Shown here piece by piece: positions 1,615 through 54,708 of a stretch of DNA of 64,000 nt. The stretch's first letter is position 1. Every line of letters starts with the position of its first letter. The stretch comes from Candidatus Accumulibacter aalborgensis (GTDB lineage Bacteria > Pseudomonadota > Gammaproteobacteria > Burkholderiales > Rhodocyclaceae), in the NCBI RefSeq assembly GCF_900089955.1, contig NZ_FLQX01000035.1, positions 1 through 64,000 of the forward strand, in the 5' to 3' direction. The position numbers and the translations under genes are program-made. The notes beneath the pieces were generated by a model. It was not told the origin of the DNA. It did not search any database and saw nothing but the letters and a program-made list of their open reading frames with translations.

Positions 1615-3060
1615 TCACTGGATCGCGCCAACGAAGGCGTCGATACTCTGCCGGGCCTCCTGCAGGTGGTGCAGGCAGTCTTGCCAGTGCAGCGAGTCAA
1701 GGCCCAGGGTATCGAGCAAGGCGGTCAGCCCGCCGTCTCTTTCGCTCGGCGTGTAATCGACGGCGAGCGCGGCGTAGGCAGCCCGGTCGGCCAGTCCGAT
1801 CAGCGCGCAGAAGGGGCTCTCGTCTCCGGCGCCGGCGGGGTCGTGGTGGTGGGCGATGGCAGCGACGTATCTGCTCGGGAGATCCCAGCGCTCGGCGACC
1901 ATTTCACCGACCTCGGGATGGGTGAACTCGAACAGCATTCGCTCAGCTTCCAGACTGCTGATCGCCGATCCACGCCGCAATTCGAGCACCCGCTGGTAGG
2001 CGGGTTCGGCCTGAACGGCGAAGATCAGTTTGCCGATATCGTGCAGGATGCCGGCGGTGAATGCTTCGTCCGGCGAGCAGCCAACCACGGGAGAGCGTAA
2101 GCGCAGGAAGCGAGCGGCGGTTGCCGTCGTGATCGAGTGCGTCCAGAACTCCCGCAGGTTCAGTCGTTCGGTGCGGAAAGCGTCGAAAGCACCCACCGAG
2201 ATGATCATTCCCTGCACGTTGGTGAAGCCAAGCACGCGCACGGCGTCGGCGATCGTGCTGATGCGCCGCGAAAAACCGAAGAACGCCGAGTTGGCGACGC
2301 GCAGGATCTTGGCCGAGATGGCGAGGTCGTGAACGATGACCCGTTCGACCGCCGTGGCCCCACTATTGGGATCCTGCATCACCCTGAGTGCGTGCAGGAC
2401 AACAGAGGGCAGGGTAGGCACTTCGTAGAGGTCGATCGGCCTGAAGCGGGCTATCGGCTCGGCCTCCAGTTTGTGGCCACCCGACGTGTCGCCGAGTTCG
2501 AGCAGGTCCGGGGACAGCCCCGGGTGCATCAACTGGAAGACATGGACCGGACGCGGCAGGTCCCGCAGGCGAAGCAGGCCGGTATCGCGCAGCGTGCTGT
2601 GGGCGGGCAAGGCAGCGCGCAGCAGCGTCTCGGTGGCCGCGGTGAGCAGCGTCTGCCCACCGCGCGTGACGGCCAGCAGGCGGGCACAGCGATTGACCGT
2701 GGTGCCGAAGTAGTCGCCCTCGCACAGGTATGCCGGGCCGGTATGCAGTGCGACGCGCACCCGTAGTGGCGCCCGTGTCGGCCAGGTTTCGGCGCCGAGG
2801 CTGGTCTGGATCTGGTAGGCCGCGGCGAGCGCATCGGCGCCATCGTCGAAGGTCACGCAGAAAGCGTCGCCGACGGTCTTGAAGACACAGCCGCGATGGC
2901 GTGCAATTGCCGACGAAAGCAGCGCGTTATGGCGCTGCAGGGCGACGCGCATCGCCTCGGGCTCACGCTCCCACAGGCTGGTCGAGCCTTCGATATCGGT
3001 GAACAGGAAGGTCGCCGTGATCAGCGATGCGTCTCCCAGAGTAGATCCTGGCGGTCCCAT
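1615..3060 (-). CDS. Class III nucleotide cyclase fused to an HDOD domain
   Basis: The 481-residue protein has two domains. Residues about 15-185 are a class III adenylate/guanylate cyclase catalytic domain: FTDIEGST with metal Asp22, FKTVGDAF with Lys61 and second metal Asp66, VRVALHTGPA, and VNRCARL carrying the Asn/Arg transition-state pair. Residues about 205-440 are an HDOD domain (VPTLPSVVLHAL, NSAFFGFSRRISTI, GILHDIGKL, AHHHDP). No membrane or signal segment is seen, so it is probably cytoplasmic. A cNMP product is likely from the catalytic residues, but the base specificity is not. The ATG at 3060 follows the stop of the upstream gene directly, with GGAGAGG as ribosome site, suggesting coupling. 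Confidence 0.82.
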   Translation of the reverse strand: MGPPGSTLGDASLITATFLFTDIEGSTSLWEREPEAMRVALQRHNALLSSAIARHRGCVFKTVGDAFCVTFDDGADALAAAYQIQTSLGAETWPTRAPLRVRVALHTGPAYLCEGDYFGTTVNRCARLLAVTRGGQTLLTAATETLLRAALPAHSTLRDTGLLRLRDLPRPVHVFQLMHPGLSPDLLELGDTSGGHKLEAEPIARFRPIDLYEVPTLPSVVLHALRVMQDPNSGATAVERVIVHDLAISAKILRVANSAFFGFSRRISTIADAVRVLGFTNVQGMIISVGAFDAFRTERLNLREFWTHSITTATAARFLRLRSPVVGCSPDEAFTAGILHDIGKLIFAVQAEPAYQRVLELRRGSAISSLEAERMLFEFTHPEVGEMVAERWDLPSRYVAAIAHHHDPAGAGDESPFCALIGLADRAAYAALAVDYTPSERDGGLTALLDTLGLDSLHWQDCLHHLQEARQSIDAFVGAIQ

Positions 3061-3510
3061 TCAACAGCCTCTCCAAGAGGGAGCGGCAGCTCGCGCGCGC
3101 GATCGGAGCAAACCACCGCCCGCGCTGAAAGAACTGAAGATCAGGGCACCGCTGCCGGAGAGGATGCCGATGTTCGGCCAGATCGTGCCCGCATCGCTCC
3201 GCGTATCCCGCAGGTCGTAACTGATCGATCCGCCGAAGAACGCGCTCTGGTTGCCGGCATATACCGGCGACGAGCGAAAGGTATTCCAGTCGTGGATGTC
3301 AGACGACTGAATCATATGGCGTGTTGCGTCGTAGTTGACGCGGTCAAAGACTCTTTCGTCTGGCAGTGGATTGACTCCCAACTTGATACGGCCGGTTCCC
3401 CAACCCTCCGCATCGAGGTCGAACGTCGACGTGATTACCGCTGCCGAAACGCCGAAGGCGGGAAGACCAAGACAGGCCACCAGCAGCCGCACCGCAAGAT
3501 TCTTCTTCAT
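3061..3510 (-). pseudogene. Truncated secreted laminin-B-like / PEP-CTERM-type protein
   Basis: The start has a strong GGAGGTGAC ribosome site and a Sec signal peptide (MKKNLAVRLLVACLGLPAFGVSAA). It continues as a carbohydrate-binding-like beta domain (STFDLDAEGWG, IHDWNTFRSSPVYAGN, ISYDLRDT), resembling laminin-B-type modules of exported proteins. After about residue 125 it becomes RSRARAAAPSWRGC and stops next to the cyclase ATG, without finishing the domain and without a PEP-CTERM sorting tail. A 3' truncation fused to the cyclase gene is likely. The family assignment is by resemblance only. Confidence 0.5.
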
Positions 3511-3531
3511 GTCACCTCCGGTCTGAAAGAA

Positions 3532-3612
3532 CTACATGTCGGATTTGGCTTCCGCAAAGCTCACGCCGTGCGTGCTTCTTCGCGTTTGCGGCCGCTTTTC
3601 GATCATCCAGCT
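3532..3612 (-). pseudogene. brnT toxin fragment (second copy)
   Basis: On the minus strand this encodes DDRKAAANAKKH and then, after a frameshift, GVSFAEAKSDM and a stop. It matches the N-terminal third of BrnT (compare DDRKAAANATKHGVSVEEAKSVF at 4550-4650). Nothing of the rest of the toxin remains. Confidence 0.55.
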
Positions 3613-3683
3613 TGCGCACTGAGGCGTCCTTTTTTGGCACGCCGCTTGAGGAATGCCGGAATCTCGATCTTTCGTGGCAAGGC

Positions 3684-3923
3684 TCAGGAGAACTGCTTGG
3701 CGAAGTTGGCCAGGGCTATTGCCAGAGCGGTCGCCAGCATCCACCTGTTGAGCACCCATTCTGCTTTCAACTCTGTGCGCATCGGCTCGATGTCATGTTT
3801 GGTCGCCAGATCGGTGTGCGACTTGACGATCGTGCGCACCACCGCTTCTGCCTGCTCCGGCGGCATCCCGGCGGCGTGTAGCTCCTGGACAAGCTCTTGG
3901 GTGTCGAAGGTCACGGTGCTCAT
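3684..3923 (-). CDS. DUF1640 (MCUR1/CCDC90-like) small coiled-coil membrane-anchored protein, copy A
   Basis: The 79-residue protein has the family layout: an N-terminal head (MSTVTFDTQELVQEL, AAGMPPEQAEAVV), a short stalk (SHTDLATKHDIEPMRTELKAEW) and a C-terminal membrane anchor (MLATALAIALANFAKQFS). Bacterial members form trimeric head-neck-stalk-anchor proteins related to mitochondrial MCUR1; their bacterial role is unknown. A second in-frame ATG four codons upstream (MLAPM, at 3935) could be the real start. The apparent frame to 4508 is spurious. The 57 bases upstream are nearly identical to those of copy B at 7564-7620. A stray piece of secD lies 200 bases upstream. Confidence 0.75.
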   Translation of the reverse strand: MSTVTFDTQELVQELHAAGMPPEQAEAVVRTIVKSHTDLATKHDIEPMRTELKAEWVLNRWMLATALAIALANFAKQFS

Positions 3924-3980
3924 GGGCGCGAGCATAGCGCAGTTGATAACTCGCCAGCAAGGCTGACGCGCAAGACCGGC
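3924..3980. repeat. Leader repeat shared by DUF1640 copies A and B
   Basis: These 57 bases upstream of copy A match 7564-7620 upstream of copy B with one mismatch (3937 G, 7577 C), and the homology stops abruptly at 3981/7621. The coding regions they precede differ extensively. Confidence 0.9.
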
Positions 3981-4120
3981 TGGCGCTGCCCTTGACCCGT
4001 AATGAGCGCTGAACTTAGATTTTCTGTTCGCGTAGTGTGGCGGGATGGAAAAACAAAACGAGATCAAGCGAACATTATCCCGACAAGGGTCGACAGAAGC
4101 GATCCGTGGGCTGCTGGGGA

Positions 4121-4187
4121 GCGCTGGAAACCTGGACCGCAGGTGATTCGCCGAAAAAGTTCCGCAGGGTGTACCCCAGGCCGAAGA
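4121..4187 (-). pseudogene. Stray fragment of secD 5' coding sequence
   Basis: These 67 bases align with 10384-10450, the start of secD (codons for about VYTLPNFFGESPAVQVSSA), with four mismatches. Flanks are unrelated to secD. It is a displaced partial duplicate with no function of its own. Confidence 0.85.
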
Positions 4188-4197
4188 GAAAAGGCGC

Positions 4198-4407
4198 CTA
4201 CTTCCAGTTGAGATCGAGCTTGCGATGCGAAGCCGCGCAGTCGCGCAAATACAGGTTGATGAGGCTCTGGTAGGGGATACCAACGTCTTCCGAGATTCTC
4301 TTGAAGTACGTGATGGACTCTTCGTCGAGCCGAATGGTGATTTGCTTTTTGAGTTGTGCTGCGTATGGGTTTTTTCTGGCAGCGGAGAAGTCGTATTCTT
4401 TGCGCAT
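4198..4407 (-). CDS. brnA: BrnA-type antitoxin
   Basis: The 69-residue ribbon-helix-helix protein (KEYDFSAARKNPYAAQLKKQITIRLDEESITYFKRI, IPYQSLINLYLRDCA) matches BrnA, the antitoxin that neutralises the RNase BrnT and represses the operon. It appears complete. It lies downstream of a broken brnT, with the second brnT frame running in frame into the brnA ATG, so it is an orphan antitoxin unless BrnT is supplied elsewhere. Confidence 0.8.
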   Translation of the reverse strand: MRKEYDFSAARKNPYAAQLKKQITIRLDEESITYFKRISEDVGIPYQSLINLYLRDCAASHRKLDLNWK

Positions 4408-4666
4408 GTGGCACCTCTGTGGATAAGACTTGGATTCCTCGGCAGTTGTCTTGCGAGCGGAGATAATACGAATGACATGACTTTCGCTCCGATAGCAATG
4501 ACAGACAAGCAGCAGTCGAAGCGCGCTGCTCAGGAGTGATCGGGATCAACCTGGCGCGCTCATCACCGAAGACGGATTTGGCTTCCTCGACGCTCACGCC
4601 GTGCTTCGTCGCGTTTGCGGCGGCCTTCCGATCATCCCACTCGAAGTGGAGTGAGGTAACATTCAA
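4408..4666 (-). pseudogene. brnT: brnT toxin, disrupted by deletion and frameshift
   Basis: The first frame (TTG start at 4666) gives LHFEWDDRKAAANATKHG and EEAKSVFGDERARLIP, the BrnT N-terminus. Homology then jumps to another frame: LLLVCHCYRSESHVIRIIS then ARKTTAEE, the BrnT C-terminus. The segment between (usually around RFILLGLS) is missing. The second frame has no stop before brnA and reads straight into its ATG. The product cannot be a complete BrnT fold. Confidence 0.75.
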
Positions 4667-4685
4667 CCCTATCCATGCAGCATCT

Positions 4686-4737
4686 CTCCACCGGTCACGA
4701 TCACGCGAAACGACCGGTCACGTTCCGCGAAATACGC
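4686..4737 (-). mobile_element. IS21-like end remnant
   Basis: On the minus strand TGCGTATTTCGCG is followed by two units of the form TTTCGC-N5/6-GTGACCGG, the same architecture as at 1-66. No transposase sequence is attached; the homology ends about 20 bases before brnT. Bases 4738-4963 to its right contain nothing recognised. Confidence 0.5.
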
Positions 4738-4963
4738 ACTCCCGCAAGACCTTCACCAAGCGCAGCACCCGGCCTTGGCCGGAATGATGATCAAGGCCGA
4801 GTGTGGCCATGTGCCAAGTCCCGGAATTGCTAGCCGATTCTTCCTGTCGGATTTCTTTACACCTCCATCGGGCAGCCCCATTGATCGGGTAGCCCCATTG
4901 TTTACACTGGCGGGGCTTTCAGCCCTATTCCTGCCTTGGCGGAAGCCGGGGGAGAGGTTCCAT

Positions 4964-4982
4964 GTGTCGAAATATTTTACAC
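4964..4982 (+). promoter_or_regulatory. Putative activator site upstream of a sigma-54 promoter
   Basis: The imperfect palindrome GTGTCGAAATATTTTACAC lies 75 bases before the -24/-12 element. An almost identical one (GTGTCGAAAAATTTTACAC, 46994-47012) lies 62 bases before the sigma-54 promoter of the other PEP-CTERM gene. The enhancer-binding regulator PrsR is a candidate, by analogy with sigma-54 control of PEP-CTERM genes in related bacteria. Confidence 0.6.
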
Positions 4983-5057
4983 TCGGACCAAGCAATCGAT
5001 AACCATTTGCCTTCGGGAAGCAAGTAACGGTCTGAATTCAAAAGCTAACTATATAAA

Positions 5058-5073
5058 TGGCATGAGTCTTGCT
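5058..5073 (+). promoter_or_regulatory. Sigma-54 promoter of PEP-CTERM gene
   Basis: TGGCATGAGTCTTGCT matches the -24/-12 consensus TGGCACG-N4-TTGCW, with GG and GC correctly spaced. It predicts an approximately 180-base leader before the ATG at 5265. Confidence 0.75.
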
Positions 5074-5264
5074 TTTCTCTTGAACACGGTCGCGGTGACG
5101 CGGCCCTGTCGGACTGATGGGCGACTACCTTGGGGGGACCAACCCTTTGTTGGACCATCGCGGTGGCCGCCACCATTCCCTTTCTTCGACGCGTGCTCAA
5201 ATGTTTCGTGCGGGCTGAACGACTCGTCTGGCTCGGACAGACCACAACCTTAAGGGGTCAAAGT

Positions 5265-5960
5265 ATGAAGATTTCCATGAATCAGGTGCTTGGCTGCACG
5301 AGTTTGGCACTCTTGATCGCTGCCGCCGCGCCGTCGGCGCAGGCGAACCTGCTCTCCGATCCTGGCTTCGAAACAAACACGCTCACCACCATAGCCAACG
5401 TGCTTGGCGACTTCGTCACATATAAGGGTCAATGGGGCGTCGAGAATGCGGTGATTACAGGCACAGTAGGCGCTGTCGTGCCGTTTCAAGGTATCAAGAT
5501 GCTCGCCATGCTTGATGATGGCCTCATCACGACCCAGTCTGCTCAGACGATCGACGTAACGTCGTATGCATCAGATATTGATGCTGGGGGTGCGAAATTT
5601 CAATTGAGCGCCTTTTTCAACACTGATTTCGAGACTGCTGGAGCCATCGGCGGCGTAATCCTGCAGTTCTTCAGTGGTTCCAGCTACAGCACGCAGGTCG
5701 GCAGCTTTGCCAGTGGCAATATCACGCTTGACGACAATCCCCTCACATGGCAGCAATCTTCGATCCATGGTTTCATCCCGGTAGGCACGAGGTGGTTCGT
5801 CGCGCAAGTCCTGTGCGACGATGCGTCGCTGCAGGGCCATACGTGTTATGTCGATGCGACGGATTTGAGCATTCCCGAGCCGACGACAATGTCCTTGTTG
5901 GTTATCAGCGGCTTGTTTTTGAGGCGGCGGTTGCGGCGGTTCGGCGGCCAGTCTGCTTAG
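5265..5960 (+). CDS. PEP-CTERM sorting-domain secreted protein
   Basis: The 231-residue protein has a signal peptide (MKISMNQVLGCTSLALLI then AAAAPSAQA). It continues as a beta-rich domain (NLLSDPGFETNTL, typical of carbohydrate-binding exported proteins) and ends in a sorting tail, IPEPTTMSLLVISGLFL followed by an Arg-rich stretch. Exosortase would cleave near the PEP motif and release it to the surface or matrix. The start at 5265 places the signal peptide correctly; an in-frame extension to 5130 is the leader. Transcription is probably sigma-54 dependent. Floc or extracellular-matrix roles are reported for such proteins; the specific function here is unknown. Confidence 0.85.
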   Translation: MKISMNQVLGCTSLALLIAAAAPSAQANLLSDPGFETNTLTTIANVLGDFVTYKGQWGVENAVITGTVGAVVPFQGIKMLAMLDDGLITTQSAQTIDVTSYASDIDAGGAKFQLSAFFNTDFETAGAIGGVILQFFSGSSYSTQVGSFASGNITLDDNPLTWQQSSIHGFIPVGTRWFVAQVLCDDASLQGHTCYVDATDLSIPEPTTMSLLVISGLFLRRRLRRFGGQSA

Positions 5961-6020
5961 GCGATTTCCGGCAGAGAGCACCCCTGAATTCCGAAGAGGG
6001 ATATTCTTGCCCAAAGAACT

Positions 6021-6125
6021 CCTCCCCTTTCAAGGGGGAGGCTGGGAGGGGATGGGGCAAAGCGACGTATCCCTGCCATGTACTATAACCCCATCCCCCC
6101 CGACCCTCCCCTTGAAGGGGAGGGA
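6021..6125. repeat. Long imperfect inverted repeat (REP-like)
   Basis: Two arms of about 37 bases (6021-6058 and 6088-6125), each with a G-rich stretch ending in GGGATGGGG on one strand and its complement on the other, flank a 29-base spacer. The arms fold into a long hairpin. It may end the PEP-CTERM transcript, but similar G/C-rich palindromes are usually dispersed intergenic repeats. Confidence 0.6.
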
Positions 6126-6275
6126 GCGCGTCTCTGTCGCTGGTAAGCACATTGCCGGAAATCACCTTAATGCGTCGGAGCGGGCAGCACAGTTGCACCG
6201 GGTGCATTCTGGCCTTCATTCACGGATGCATTCTGGATTGCTGGATTCGGGGTCAGCCCCTGTTAGGAGATTGTC

Positions 6276-6854
6276 ATGAAAGATACGTCAACGCTAGGCA
6301 GGCTTCCAATGCATGCAAAGATGATTGTTACCAGCAGAAAGGTATTTAAATATATTCTGCTGGCTGGTTGCTTGCTGTTCCCCGCGATTGCGAAAGGGTA
6401 TTATATTTATGACACGACACTGGCTATACAGCCGAATTCACCAATAACGACACAGGATGCGGTTTCAGCCGTACTGGGAGGCAGCTTCGCAACGAGCGGC
6501 TTTTGTGGTTCCATAAATACCTGCAGCAACTCAGTGACAATCACGGGCTACAACATTGATATCAATTTCTATTCCACGTCCCCAACCGGCAACGTCAGCC
6601 AGGTGCTGGTTCCATTTTTTAGTACTGCAAGCATTGGACACTTGAGCGCCGGTATATATGTAGCAAACGCGTATTTTTATGTAGATAATAGTACGCTTGA
6701 TGTTGTGGGTCCACCTGCGGCAAATCCGGTCACAAAATCGTTCACCGTATTGGCGGTGCCCATTCCAGGCACGCTATGGTTGCTGGGCGCTGGATTATTC
6801 TCGATTCTCATTTTGAATAAGCGACCGGGATTACGGAATCTTGCCTCGTGGTAG
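6276..6854 (+). CDS. Secreted protein with variant PEP-CTERM-like anchor
   Basis: The 192-residue protein starts at an ATG with AGGAGA six bases before it. An unusually long N-region precedes a signal segment (KYILLAGCLLFPAIAKG). The middle is Ser/Thr/Asn-rich and lower in GC than its neighbours. The C-terminus is VPIPGTLWLLGAGLFSILI then LNKRP, a sorting-type tail with IPG instead of EPG before the hydrophobic stretch and a short basic end. It may be an exosortase substrate variant. There is no clear sigma-54 site; TGGTAAGCACATTGCC at 6141 is a poor match. The body has no recognised domain. Confidence 0.65.
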   Translation: MKDTSTLGRLPMHAKMIVTSRKVFKYILLAGCLLFPAIAKGYYIYDTTLAIQPNSPITTQDAVSAVLGGSFATSGFCGSINTCSNSVTITGYNIDINFYSTSPTGNVSQVLVPFFSTASIGHLSAGIYVANAYFYVDNSTLDVVGPPAANPVTKSFTVLAVPIPGTLWLLGAGLFSILILNKRPGLRNLASW

Positions 6855-6978
6855 ACATGACCAGCGGGCTGGCCACCAGCGGACGAGTAGATGCCGAAAC
6901 AGCTGCCGATGACAACGAGCAATAGTGCCAAAGCGCCGTTTTCCGCCAGTTCACGGCCGACCTGCGGGCCGACGAACT
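6855..6978 (-). pseudogene. Chimeric secF fragment with internal deletion
   Basis: Bases 6855-6910 align with secF 7745-7802, and 6905-6978 align with secF 8168-8242. The two pieces are joined at the short repeat ATGCCGAT, present at both places in secF, with about 365 bases lost between. The copy has substitutions and a two-base gap and cannot be translated as SecF. Confidence 0.85.
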
Positions 6979-7120
6979 ACGAAGGGCGTGGTTGCGTGAA
7001 TTCATGGTGCTCAGGAATGGGGTTCCGTCGGAGAAGGCGTTTCTGCGCATCTTCCAGGCCCGCCGACCCAAAGCAATTCGAGGCGGCGTTCCGCCGCTGG
7101 GTGGCTGGGGTGGTCAGCGC
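6979..7120 (+). pseudogene. ISAs1-like transposase N-terminal fragment
   Basis: One frame gives WLREFMVLRNGVPSEKAF then LRIFQA, and after a frameshift another gives DPKQFEAAFRRWV, the pattern at the N-terminus of ISAs1-type DDE transposases (W-L-x-x-F...NGIPS...F...F...LDP..F...F..W). The rest of the transposase is absent. It starts exactly where the secF fragment ends. Confidence 0.5.
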
Positions 7121-7152
7121 GTAGGGTGCCAATAAAGCGAAGCGCATTGCAC
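7121..7152. repeat. Copy of one MITE-like arm
   Basis: GTAGGGTGCCAATAAAGCG and the following GAAGCGCATTGCACC resemble the left arm of the hairpin element at 43223-43294. Confidence 0.5.
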
Positions 7153-7218
7153 CAACTACCGGATGCCAAAGTCGACCGCAATCAGGCATCAGGCGAGTGA
7201 TGGCGCAAAGCCCTTCAG

Positions 7219-7263
7219 TTATTCCGCCCAACGAGCTTGGGTGTCGAAGTTCATTGTGCTCAT
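7219..7263 (-). pseudogene. DUF1640 N-terminal remnant, copy E
   Basis: The minus strand reads MSTMNFDTQARWAE then stop, matching the MSTxTFDT head start of the family. It lies three bases beyond the end of copy B, as a tandem remnant. Confidence 0.55.
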
Positions 7264-7266
7264 CAG

Positions 7267-7563
7267 TCAGTGTGGCAAGCGCAGCACGGCGATGATGACG
7301 CCGGCGGCGGCGGCGATGAAGGCGCCGAGTTTGACGGTGAGCCTCAGTTCAAGTGTTTCGATACGGTTTTGCAGGCGAGTTTCAAGCCCGTCAATCCTCG
7401 TTTCCAGACGAACAGCATCAGCCTTGGTTGCCAGGGTGGCGTCCAGCGCCTCGGACAGAGACTCCTTTTGCGCCTCGGCGATGGCCGCGGCTTGTTCGCG
7501 GGAGAGACCGGCCTTTTCCAGCCGGTCCACGAATTTGAAGGTATCGAACGTGGTTGTGCTCAT
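7267..7563 (-). CDS. DUF1640 (MCUR1/CCDC90-like) coiled-coil membrane-anchored protein, copy B
   Basis: The 98-residue protein has a head (MSTTTFDTFKFVDRLEKAG, LSREQAAAIAEAQKESLSEAL), a stalk of repeated coiled-coil heptads (RLETRIDGLETRLQNRIETL then ELRL) and a C-terminal anchor (GAFIAAAAGVIIAVLRLPH). The anchor differs from the ALANFAKQFF type of copies A, C and D. An alternative start at 7575 (MLAPM) is shared with copy A. It lies downstream of secF on the same strand with a 101-base gap whose proximal 57 bases are the conserved leader. The function of bacterial members is unknown. Confidence 0.75.
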   Translation of the reverse strand: MSTTTFDTFKFVDRLEKAGLSREQAAAIAEAQKESLSEALDATLATKADAVRLETRIDGLETRLQNRIETLELRLTVKLGAFIAAAAGVIIAVLRLPH

Positions 7564-7620
7564 GGGCGCGAGCATACCGCAGTTGATAACTCGCCAGCAA
7601 GGCTGACGCGCAAGACCGGC
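7564..7620. repeat. Leader repeat shared by DUF1640 copies A and B
   Basis: Partner of 3924-3980, with one mismatch in 57 bases. It carries the upstream ATG of the MLAPM start and probably the promoter or translation signals; no clear -35/-10 is evident. Confidence 0.9.
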
Positions 7621-7664
7621 CAGCGCGCTTCATTCCATCGCGAATACGATGGAATGGCTGAGAA

Positions 7665-8609
7665 CTAAACGACGGCGCCCTCGTCATTGGCGCCCTCGAT
7701 CTGCTTCTTGGGCCGGATGAACTGCTCGCGCGAGACGCCGAGCCACATGACCAACGGACTGGCTACCAGCACCGACGAGTAGATGCCGAAACAGATGCCG
7801 ATGGTCAGCGCCAGGGCAAAGTAGTGCAGCGTCTCGCCACCGAAGAGCAGCATCGAGAGGACCATCATCTGTGTACAGCCGTGCGTGATGATGGTCCGCG
7901 AAATGGTACTGGTGATCGCGTGGTCCAGCACCTGCGGCGTGGTCAGTCCACGGACTTTCCTGAAGGTCTCGCGGACGCGGTCGAAAACGACGACCGACTC
8001 ATTGACCGAGTAGCCGAGCACGGCAAGGACCGCCGCCAGCACCGACAGCGAGAACTCCCACTGGAAGAAGGCGAAGAAGCCGAGAATGATGATCACATCG
8101 TGCAGGTTGGCGATGATTGCCGACACTGAAAATCGCCACTCGAAACGGAACGAGAGGTACAGGACGATGCCGATGACGACGAGCAACAATGCCAGAGCAC
8201 CGTTTTCTGCCAGTTCACGGCCGACCTGCGGGCCGACGAACTCGACTCGACGCAGCGTGGCGCCGGGCGCCTCGGCATTGAGCGCCTCCATCACCGACTC
8301 GCCGATCTTGGTCGTGTTCTGATCTGCCTTGAGCGGCAGGCGGATCAGGAGATCCTGGCTGGAGCCGAAATTCTGCACCGAGAAGTCGCTGTAGCCCGCC
8401 TTGCCCAGCCCGTCGCGGACTTTTTCCAGATCGGCTGCCTGAGCGTAGTTGAGCTCGATCAAGGTTCCGCCGGTGAATTCGACCGACAGATGCAGGCCGC
8501 GGCTGAACAGGAAGAACACCGCCAGCAAAAAGGTGAGCAGCGAAATGACGTTGAACACCAGCGCATGGCGCATGAACGGGATGTCTTTTCTGATGCGGAA
8601 GAATTCCAT
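7665..8609 (-). CDS. secF: Protein translocase subunit SecF
   Basis: SecF pairs with SecD to form the proton-driven accessory complex that helps SecYEG complete protein export. The 314-residue length is typical. The first membrane segment is at about 19-38 (VISLLTFLLAVFFLFSRG), followed by a periplasmic domain (VEFTGGTLIEL) and a five-helix bundle (LALLLVVIGIVLYLSFRFEW, LGYSVNESVVVFDRVRE, SRTIITHGCTQMMVL). It lies 12 bases after secD in the yajC-secD-secF order. Two pieces of it occur as a decayed chimera at 6855-6978. Confidence 0.97.
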   Translation of the reverse strand: MEFFRIRKDIPFMRHALVFNVISLLTFLLAVFFLFSRGLHLSVEFTGGTLIELNYAQAADLEKVRDGLGKAGYSDFSVQNFGSSQDLLIRLPLKADQNTTKIGESVMEALNAEAPGATLRRVEFVGPQVGRELAENGALALLLVVIGIVLYLSFRFEWRFSVSAIIANLHDVIIILGFFAFFQWEFSLSVLAAVLAVLGYSVNESVVVFDRVRETFRKVRGLTTPQVLDHAITSTISRTIITHGCTQMMVLSMLLFGGETLHYFALALTIGICFGIYSSVLVASPLVMWLGVSREQFIRPKKQIEGANDEGAVV

Positions 8610-8621
8610 CTTCGTGCTTCC

Positions 8622-10499
8622 CTATTTGACTGCCGCAGTGGCGGTGTTGCCGGGTTTCCAGACCTGACCGATGGCCAGCGACTCGACCTTGCGACGACGA
8701 CCGTAGAACAGATTGATCATCGCTCGCGAGACGACCACGGCCGAGAACAGCGAGGTCAGGATCCCGAGGCAGTGCACCACGGCAAAGCCGCGCACCGGGC
8801 CAGAGCCAAAAATCAGCAGCGCGACGCCGGCAATCAGCGTCGTGATGTTCGAGTCGAGGATGGTCCCGAAAGCGCGCTCGTAACCCGTATGGATCGCTGC
8901 CTGCGGACTCGATCCATTGCGCAACTCCTCACGGATCCGCTCGTTGATCAGGACGTTGGCGTCGATCGCCATGCCCAGCGCGAGTGCGATCGCAGCGATT
9001 CCCGGCAGGGTCAGCGTCGCCTGCAACAAGGAGAGCAGGGCGACCAGGAAGAGCAGGTTGGCGGCCAGGGCGATCACCGAGACGAGACCAAAGAGCGCAT
9101 AGTAGGCGATCATGAAAACGGCAATCGCGGTAAAGCCCCACATTGTCGAGTGGAAACCCTTCTGGATGTTCTCGGCTCCCAGGCTTGGGCCGATTGCACG
9201 TTCCTCGATGATCTCCATTGGCGCGGCGAGCGAGCCGGCGCGCAGGAGTAGCGCCGTGTCGTTGGCTTCCATGGTGCTCATGCGGCCGGAGATCTGGACG
9301 CGGCCGCCGCCGATCTCTGCCCGGATGACCGGCGCCGTGACCACTTCGCCCTTGCCCTTCTCGATCAGGACGATGGCCATCCGCTTGCCGACGTTGTCGC
9401 GGGTGATGTCCTTGAAGATGCGCGCCCCGGCCGAATCGAGCGTCAGGTGAACGGCGGGTTCGTGCGTCTGGTTGTCGAAACCCGGCTGTGCGTCGGTCAA
9501 ACGATCACCGGTCAGGACGACCTGTTTCTTGACCAGCAGCGCCATGCCGCCACGCTCGACATACATCTCGGTGCCAAAGGGTGCCTGCCCAGCCTGGGCC
9601 GCTTCGAGGGCGCCGGGGGTGTCATCGACCATCCGGATTTCCAGCGTCGCTGTGCGGCCGAGAATGTCCTTGGCTTTCGCCGTGTCCTGCACGCCCGGCA
9701 ACTGGACGACGATACGGTCAGCGCCTTGCTGCGCGATCACCGGTTCGGCGACGCCGAGTTCATTGATCCGGTTATGCAGCGTGGTCATGTTCTGCCGGAC
9801 CGCGAACTCCTGGATGCGCTTGATCGCCTCGGGCTTCAAGGTGGCGACGAGCTTCAGATCTTCGCCCTCGCCCTGGTCGGCCAGGAGCAGATCCGACTGG
9901 CTATCCTCCAGGAGGATGCGGGCCTTGCTGCGCGTGTCGTTGTCGCGGAAGCGGATGACCACCCGATCACCTTCCCGGGTGATGCCGGCATGGCGAACGG
10001 TCTTGTCGCGCAGCAGGCTGCGGAGATCCGCGCTGATCGAGTCCAGACGTTTGGTAGCCGCGCCCTTCATATCGACCTGGAGCAGGAAATGCACACCGCC
10101 ACGCAGATCGAGGCCGAGGTACATCGGCAGGGCATGCAGGCGAGTCAGCCACTGCGGCGAACTCGAGAGCAGATTCAAGGCGACGACATAGTGCGGGTCG
10201 CTGGGGTCCGGGTTGAACTGTTTCTCGAGCAGGTCCTTGGCCTGCAACTGGCTGTCCGCGCTGGGCAGGCGAACCTTGACGCCGTTGCTGTCGAGGAAGA
10301 GGCCATTACTTTCGATGCCCGCGGCCTGCAGGGTCTTGGCGACGCGCTCGCGCGTCTTGTCATCGACCTTGAGCGTCACCTTGGCGCTGGAAACCTGGAC
10401 CGCAGGTGATTCGCCGAAGAAGTTCGGCAGCGTGTACACCAGGCCGAAGACCAGCGCGACGGCGACGAGGATGTATTTCCAGAGCGGATAGCGGTTCAT
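8622..10499 (-). CDS. secD: Protein translocase subunit SecD
   Basis: This is the larger SecDF component, acting at the inner membrane with a large periplasmic domain. The 625 residues include a first helix at 8-26 (KYILVAVALVFGLVYTLP), the motif LDLRGGVHFLLQVD, a periplasmic P1 domain, and helices with ALGMAIDANVLINERIREE and GSGPVRGFAVVHCLGI. Its 5' codons (10384-10450) recur as a stray fragment at 4121-4187. It is co-directional with yajC (60-base gap) and secF. Confidence 0.97.
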   Translation of the reverse strand: MNRYPLWKYILVAVALVFGLVYTLPNFFGESPAVQVSSAKVTLKVDDKTRERVAKTLQAAGIESNGLFLDSNGVKVRLPSADSQLQAKDLLEKQFNPDPSDPHYVVALNLLSSSPQWLTRLHALPMYLGLDLRGGVHFLLQVDMKGAATKRLDSISADLRSLLRDKTVRHAGITREGDRVVIRFRDNDTRSKARILLEDSQSDLLLADQGEGEDLKLVATLKPEAIKRIQEFAVRQNMTTLHNRINELGVAEPVIAQQGADRIVVQLPGVQDTAKAKDILGRTATLEIRMVDDTPGALEAAQAGQAPFGTEMYVERGGMALLVKKQVVLTGDRLTDAQPGFDNQTHEPAVHLTLDSAGARIFKDITRDNVGKRMAIVLIEKGKGEVVTAPVIRAEIGGGRVQISGRMSTMEANDTALLLRAGSLAAPMEIIEERAIGPSLGAENIQKGFHSTMWGFTAIAVFMIAYYALFGLVSVIALAANLLFLVALLSLLQATLTLPGIAAIALALGMAIDANVLINERIREELRNGSSPQAAIHTGYERAFGTILDSNITTLIAGVALLIFGSGPVRGFAVVHCLGILTSLFSAVVVSRAMINLFYGRRRKVESLAIGQVWKPGNTATAAVK

Positions 10500-10934: not shown

Positions 10935-14866
<3,932 letters not shown>

Positions 14867-14885
14867 ACATACCTCGCGGGTCAGG

Positions 14886-14926
14886 GAAGAAGGAAAAGAC
14901 ACTTCGAACGGCACGTTCGAAGTGTC
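14886..14926 (-). terminator. Hairpin terminator between porD-like gene and ppdK
   Basis: A perfect 12-base stem (GACACTTCGAAC / GTTCGAAGTGTC) has a five-base loop and is followed on the minus strand by TTTTCCTTCTTCC. It may end the por transcript or act as an attenuator in the ppdK leader. Confidence 0.65.
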
Positions 14927-52207: not shown

Positions 52208-53908
52208 ATGTTGCAGAACCCTGCCAGCAAATACCATGCCTTCCCGCCGGTCGACCTCGCCGACCGCCAGTGGCCGAGCCGCAGCATGAGTCAGCCGCCG
52301 ATCTGGATGAGTACCGACCTGCGCGACGGCAACCAGTCATTGTTCGAGCCGATGAATCTCGAACGCAAGATGCGCCTCTTCCGCCTGCTTTGCGAGATCG
52401 GCTTCAAGGAAATCGAGGTCGCTTTTCCCTCGGCATCGCAGACCGAGTTCGACTTCGTTCGCGGCCTCATCGAGGGCCAGCAGATCCCGGCTGAAGTCAC
52501 CATCGAGGTCCTCACCCAGGCGCGCGAGCACCTGATCCGGCGAACGATGGAGTCGCTCCGCGGCGCCCGCCGGGCGATCGTGCATGTCTACAATGCCACC
52601 TCGCGGCCCTTCCGCGACTTCGTCTTCGACATGAGCCGGGCCGAGGTCGTCGACATGGCCGTCGCGGCCGTCAAATTGGTCAAACAACTGGCTGCTGAAC
52701 AACCGGCCACCGAATGGGTGCTCGAATACAGTCCGGAAACCTTTACCGCTACCGAACTCGATTTCGCGCTCGAAGTCTGCAACGCGGTAACCGCAGCCTG
52801 GGGGGCAACACCCGACGACAAGGTGATCCTCAACCTGCCAACCACCGTCGAACTCGCGACGCCCAACGTCTATGCCGACCAGATCGAGTGGATGCACCGT
52901 CACCTCGAACGCCGCGACAGCGTCATCCTCAGCCTGCACCCGCATAACGACCGCGGCACTGCCGTCGCCGCCGCCGAACTCGCGCTGATGGCCGGTGCCG
53001 ATCGCGTCGAAGGCTGCCTGTTCGGCAACGGCGAGCGCACCGGCAACGTCGATCTCGTGACGCTGGCGCTCAATCTCTATACCCAGGGTATCGCGCCCGG
53101 CCTCGACTTCTCCGACATCAACGCCGTCGCCCGAACTTTCGAGCATTGCACTCGCTTGCCCATCCATCCACGCCATCCCTATGTCGGCGACCTGGTGTTC
53201 ACCGCCTTCTCCGGTTCGCATCAGGACGCGATCAAGAAGGGCTTCGCCGTCAAGCAGGACGATGTCGCCTGGAACGTTCCCTACCTGCCGATCGACCCGG
53301 CCGACGTCGGCCGCAACTACGACTCGGTGATCCGGGTCAACAGTCAGTCCGGCAAGGGCGGCATTGCCTATTTGCTCGAAGCTGAATATGGCGTCGTGAT
53401 GCCGCGCCGCCTGCAGGTCGAATTTTCCAACGTCGTCCAGCAACATACCGAAGCGCACGGCGGCGAAGTCAGCGCCGCCGAGATCTGGCAACTCTTCGCG
53501 ACGGCCTATCTCGACACCTGCGAACCGATACGCTACCGCGAGCACCGCCTGTTCGAAAACGGCCAGGCGCAGGGCATCCGCCTGGCGGTCGACATCGAAG
53601 GCGCGCCACGTTTGCTCACCGGCGAAGGCAACGGTCCGGTCGACGCGGCGGTGCACGCGCTGCACAACGCCGGCATCGACGTCCAGGTGCGCAGCTTTGA
53701 GGAGCGTTCGATGAGTGCTAGCGGTGAAGGAGGCAACGCCAGCGCCTGCGCCTTCATGGAAATCATCCGCGCCGATGGTGCCGGCGGCGAGTTCTACGGC
53801 GCCGGCGTAGACGCCAACATCGTCACAGCGTCGATCAAGGCGCTGCTCAGCGGGATCAACCGCATAGCGCTTCGGCTGCAACCAGGCGGGCAGCAGGAAG
53901 CAGCCTAG
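52208..53908 (+). CDS. leuA: 2-isopropylmalate synthase
   Basis: LeuA condenses acetyl-CoA and 2-oxoisovalerate in leucine synthesis. The 566 residues belong to the long (LeuA2) type with [53 protein letters not shown] and a C-terminal regulatory domain. AGGAGCC precedes the ATG. The last codons ([17 protein letters not shown]) differ from the duplicated 3' end at 54613-54708, which ends GGNKFRG, so one of the two tails is not the ancestral one. Confidence 0.96.
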
Positions 53909-54587: not shown

Positions 54588-54612
54588 GTCAGCCGCCCGC
54601 AAGGCGGTTTTT

Positions 54613-54708
54613 GGTGCCGGCAGCGAGTTCTACGGCGCCGGCGTAGACGCCAACATCGTCACGGCGTCGATCAAGGCGCTGCTCGGCGGGAATAAATTCC
54701 GTGGCTAG
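54613..54708 (+). pseudogene. Duplicated 3' end of leuA
   Basis: Bases 54613-54691 match leuA 53777-53855 with three mismatches in 79 bases. They encode [20 protein letters not shown] then KALLGGNKFRG and stop. There is no start or upstream leuA sequence. Confidence 0.92.

Follow-up and report, generated by a model that had tools for sequence, protein, structure and literature searches.

A 124-base scrap of secF, joined at a short direct repeat, lies beside the intact gene in Candidatus Accumulibacter aalborgensis

The window analyzed here, a 64-kb stretch of DNA from Candidatus Accumulibacter aalborgensis, carries an intact secF gene on the minus strand (7665–8609), an open reading frame of 314 amino acids with Pfam matches to SecD_SecF_C (E 1e-61) and Sec_GG. 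About 690 bases past the stop codon of this resident gene lies a 124-base scrap (6855–6978, hereafter the relic), which blastn resolved into two colinear pieces of the neighboring secF. Piece 1 (6904–6978, minus strand) corresponds to codons of about 123–148 and has its counterpart at 8168–8242 (92% identity over 75 nt, E 4e-24). Piece 2 (6855–6911, minus strand) corresponds to codons of about 269–289, with its counterpart at 7745–7803 (88% identity, E 3e-13), and carries one 2-nt deletion that breaks the reading frame. Both pieces keep the order and orientation that they have in secF. The first-pass annotation of this DNA had described two distinct secF segments fused at these positions, and its coordinates proved exact: the alignment of 6855–6978 with 7745–8242 is colinear, and a search of the own genome with the relic returned matches at three places, all inside the window, with no other matching place. 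The relic is likely a non-coding, dead scrap of secF, for which a function is not likely; as such it is a known kind of thing, a product of ordinary genome decay. We found no published description of it, although secF scraps were not searched by name.

From secF towards the relic, the order of features is DUF1640 copy B, remnant E, a multi-copy element, and a transposase piece. DUF1640 copy B (7267–7575, minus strand) has a CCDC90-like Pfam match (E 5e-7) that falls below the gathering cut-off. Remnant E (7236–7263, minus strand; repeat D19 with 3896–3923) lies a few bases past the copy B stop. The annotation had placed the fusion close to copy B and "its" remnant E; both do lie between the relic and secF, but remnant E consists of the opening nine codons of a different DUF1640-type gene. 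The transposase piece (6978–7120, plus strand) is an internal fragment of a DDE_Tnp_1-associated transposase gene with two frame-breaking gaps, 91% identical to a copy in the relative G019, whose gene matches Pfam DDE_Tnp_1_assoc (E 3e-28). We take this fragment to be ISAs1-like. Its homology starts where secF homology stops (6978/6979), as the annotation had stated; judged against the G019 copy, the two sides have only about 1 nt in common at this join. The fragment comes from inside the gene and is not an IS end, and an ISAs1-family IS as such was rejected for this place, where only about 140 nt of the N-terminal part of the transposase are present and both ends lie inside the gene. No other copy of the piece was found in the own genome (19 of 19 candidates scored). 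Adjoining it is a multi-copy element of ~125 bases with REP-like inverted ends (7113–7237; hairpin z –2.1), recognized from own-genome matches on contigs C111, C113, C13, C125, C2, and C106 and elsewhere on C35, the contig of the window; it may belong to a REPIN family.

On the other side of the relic is a gene that we take to be PEP-CTERM-like, although it has no Pfam hit; in the only homologue found (in G042), DNA similarity ends short of the 3' end. In relatives, secF is often followed by what is presumably a cytochrome b561-like gene and later by purB, both names being assigned from the translations. When 2900–7700 was compared with the secF regions of 20 relatives, only the secF pieces and the 3' end of secF itself matched. 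The purB cluster of the own genome lies on another contig, and the cytochrome b561/c' stretch had no DNA match in the own genome among the best 40 of 87 candidates. The relic thus sits in a lineage-specific stretch.

Several other repeated or truncated features were noted in the window. The upstream DNA (~60 nt) and first codons of DUF1640 copies A and B are alike (3900–3986 and 7540–7626, 90%) while the bodies differ, such that one upstream-plus-start region is joined to two coding bodies. An 80-nt direct repeat (53776–53855 and 54612–54691, 96% identical) flanks a stretch with a DUF1640-like gene. Between a brnA-like gene (ORF at 4198–4407) and DUF1640 copy A lies another gene scrap, 67 nt from the 5' part of secD (4121–4187, 94% identical to 10384–10450); beyond it and the relic, no further secD or secF scrap was found in 2900–7660, the other four matches having E 0.55. 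Two brnT-like partial copies (3540–3608 and 4573–4637) are 84% alike, and the match of the second to the 77-position BrnT profile stops after position 45. At about 4652–4803, two short repeats abut, with near-identical copies at the ends of contigs C126, C1, C4, and C35; they probably represent a mobile element at which the assembly breaks. Near the window start is a Cas1 gene (22–1254, Pfam E 1e-59) whose longest ORF has an extra N-terminal stretch.

The relic was searched for in 28 genomes of the genus including its own, 26 of which matched. secF matched in 25 of the 27 other genomes (G003 and G008 were without any match). Genomes with matches to both pieces had them separated by several hundred bases, as they are in secF; a further 26-base match in G013 (E 9e-4) was disregarded. 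The joined pieces occurred in none of these 27 genomes, for many of which the best 31 candidates were scored. Nor was the junction pattern found in the genome_contigs collection (from which own-genome records were possibly left out), and the relic had no match in plasmids or in phages. Thus, among the genomes sampled, the relic is unique to its own.

We turn to the join between the two pieces. secF contains a 10-nt direct repeat, GATGCCGATG, at 7794–7803 and 8166–8175, identified by alignment and repeat counting. The two copies lie 372 nt apart in a common reading frame, constitute the second-longest direct repeat within the gene, and encode Ile-Gly-Ile in two hydrophobic stretches of SecF. 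The annotation had reported an 8-base microhomology, ATGCCGAT, at the join and at both positions in secF. This motif is indeed present at 7795 and 8167, inside GATGCCGATG, but the relic itself lacks it and reads cTGCCGATG at the join (CTGCCGATG), which is 8 nt of exact match, or 9 of 10 with one mismatch. Because the surviving repeat copy has a single change, the two matches overlap by 8 nt only (TGCCGATG, 6904–6911, common to both pieces in the alignment). The loss at the join amounts to 372 nt, a multiple of three, and is in frame. Among random deletion junctions in secF, homology of at least 8 nt occurred in 3.4e-4 and of at least 10 nt in 5.9e-5. Across 25 relatives, the repeat is perfect over its 10 nt in 8, and the remaining 17 keep 8 or 9 of the 10 bases. 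With a common repeat at both parental breakpoints and one copy left at the join, the sequences give good support to a deletion at a short repeat as the event that formed the relic.

Upon comparing the relic with the resident secF, we counted 11 substitutions in 124 sites; the raw table lists 12 differences, one of which vanishes when the 2-nt gap is shifted by one base. Ten of the 11 substitutions are synonymous (6/6 in piece 1 and 4/5 in piece 2), there is no amino-acid change in 39 complete codons, and the eleventh substitution is the mismatched base of the join. Random changes at the relic sites would be expected to give a synonymous share of 0.26–0.33. We modeled a duplicate that decays freely while the resident secF accepts only synonymous changes: at least 10 of 11 synonymous substitutions then arise with P = 0.001–0.005 if the branches are equally long, with P = 0.008–0.03 if the resident branch is twice that of the relic, and with P = 0.05–0.13 if it is four times as long, where the test loses force. 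A neutral proportion of non-synonymous changes on the relic branch was accordingly not seen at equal branch lengths, a departure that becomes weak with the fourfold resident branch. Nearby pieces served as controls: the transposase piece differs from its nearest copy, in G019, by six synonymous and five non-synonymous changes, with two gaps that disrupt the frame, whereas the secD scrap shows two changes of each kind. The relic differs from the transposase piece alone with a one-sided Fisher P of 0.07, and with P = 0.049 when the secD scrap is pooled in.

A tree was built from the secF genes of 25 relatives and of the own genome, with the relic aligned to its corresponding positions. In this tree the own secF groups with the relic (support 99), and the two stand well apart from all other sequences; branch lengths estimated from the 124 sites are 0.082 for the relic and 0.021 for the resident. 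On the same sites, the own secF differs from its relatives by 14 to 22 substitutions. When the 11 sites were polarized, 420, 845, and 855 looked changed in the resident and 414, 431, 814, and perhaps 836 in the relic, while the other sites gave no direction. The annotation had looked to relatives to date the event; the comparison places it later than the divergence of this lineage and the sampled sister species, but offers no finer date. Over the two pieces together, the resident secF is at least as close to the relic as any sampled species is, and hence none of these qualifies as a donor.

The near-absence of non-synonymous divergence, unlike in the nearby control pieces, suggests that the source copy mostly diverged as coding secF before it was broken; judging from these counts, it is most likely that the source was a working gene. 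We therefore favor, as the probable account, that the relic is the inert remnant of a diverged second secF copy that lost its middle at a repeat and was later trimmed. Such a copy would have sat just downstream of the resident gene. Given the synonymous-only divergence, it would most simply have been acquired from a sister Accumulibacter lineage, by recombination next to its homologue; it may instead have been a resident allele, left behind once secF was replaced, or, less simply, a paralogue that long remained functional. Replication slippage or single-strand annealing would then have removed 372 nt together with one repeat copy, and the ends of the relic may have been lost in later breaks of the rearranged stretch, leaving it abutting the transposase fragment. 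Several observations weigh against this reading. The synonymous excess comes from 11 substitutions and would lose its force with a resident branch four times as long, although in the tree, on 124 sites, it is the relic that has the longer branch. No donor was found among the sampled species, and the secD scrap and the scrap upstream of DUF1640 copy A look like local copies, which favors a local duplication.

Because those two scraps share the stretch with the relic, a local tandem duplication of secD-secF-DUF1640, followed by neutral decay and a short-repeat deletion, is a serious rival, though on balance we regard it as unlikely. The relic is adjacent to secF and in the same orientation, and the secD scrap has changes of both kinds; the strongly synonymous pattern of the secF changes speaks against it, at least for equal branches. 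This is close to what the annotation had proposed, namely a duplication and then a short-repeat deletion. The deletion at the repeat holds up, but simple duplication with neutral decay is not favored, given 10 of 11 synonymous substitutions.

It is quite improbable that two parts of secF were copied into the site in a single event, by template switching or short-patch insertion, with a jump at the repeat, in which case a full second copy would never have existed. The small size of the relic, the repeat at its inner join, and the patchwork of unrelated short pieces in which it lies would suit such an event, but the right outer join lacks clear short homology (about 1 nt), and copying from the resident gene leaves the synonymous-only divergence unexplained. 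An assembly artefact from mixed strains is very improbable. The genome is a metagenome-derived 4.7 Mb draft in 181 contigs, and the named records closest to it by SecF come from Accumulibacter, most of them being MAGs; however, the internal deletion, the frame-breaking indel, and the joins to other decayed pieces are unlike read mixing, and contamination is 0.2. Duplication of an attachment site by an integrative element was also considered and rejected, as the relic ends 80 nt before the secF stop and includes codons 123–148. An expressed mini-SecF or an antisense RNA is scarcely credible, for although the frame is kept across the join (FVGPQVG...VVIGSCFGIYSS), it breaks soon past it, and the relic has no start region and is absent from every other genome searched.

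By itself the relic matters little, being a dead gene scrap from a well-known kind of deletion. Nevertheless, the count of synonymous and non-synonymous changes in such a scrap can show whether it is a recent local duplicate or comes from an allele that evolved as a working gene, and counts of this sort bear on the frequency with which these uncultured bacteria acquire related DNA.

A more specific form of the favored account is that DNA of a sister Accumulibacter species was captured beside its homologue by homology-facilitated illegitimate recombination and then repeat-deleted, the relic being its footprint; we hold this only tentatively and think it rather doubtful. If it is true, core-gene scraps that lie beside the core gene and have diverged only synonymously could reveal such events genome-wide. 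The process is documented in transformable bacteria (PMC6382021; see also PMC3240628, on E. coli conjugation). It would put related foreign DNA next to the homologous gene and leave joins of short homology on one side. The divergence pattern of the relic fits DNA from another lineage; at this locus, however, neither a donor nor a flanking homologous tract was identified, and the right join has ~1 nt of homology against G019. The resident secF may itself be a mosaic: sliding windows along it gave no clean tract, and the nearest relative shifts along the gene; over the whole gene it is G019 (87.4%). The best single match for the neighboring stretch 10935–14914 is G012 at 89% (for part of the stretch) versus 84% for G019.

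Deletion between short direct repeats in bacteria offers a close parallel, in that one repeat copy and the intervening DNA are lost, here with a repeat of 8–10 nt and copies 372 nt apart; it differs in that the surviving repeat is one base off and that the deletion is deduced from sequence. Truncated fragments of duplicated genes in repeat-rich bacterial genomes are likewise short, frame-broken, non-conserved, and found beside transposase debris, but the divergence of the relic from its parent is almost wholly synonymous. Finally, the element at 7113–7237, which neighbors the relic and is no part of it, resembles REPINs (Bertels and Rainey, 2011; PMC3116915) in being multi-copy with inverted REP-like ends, a likeness of sequence.
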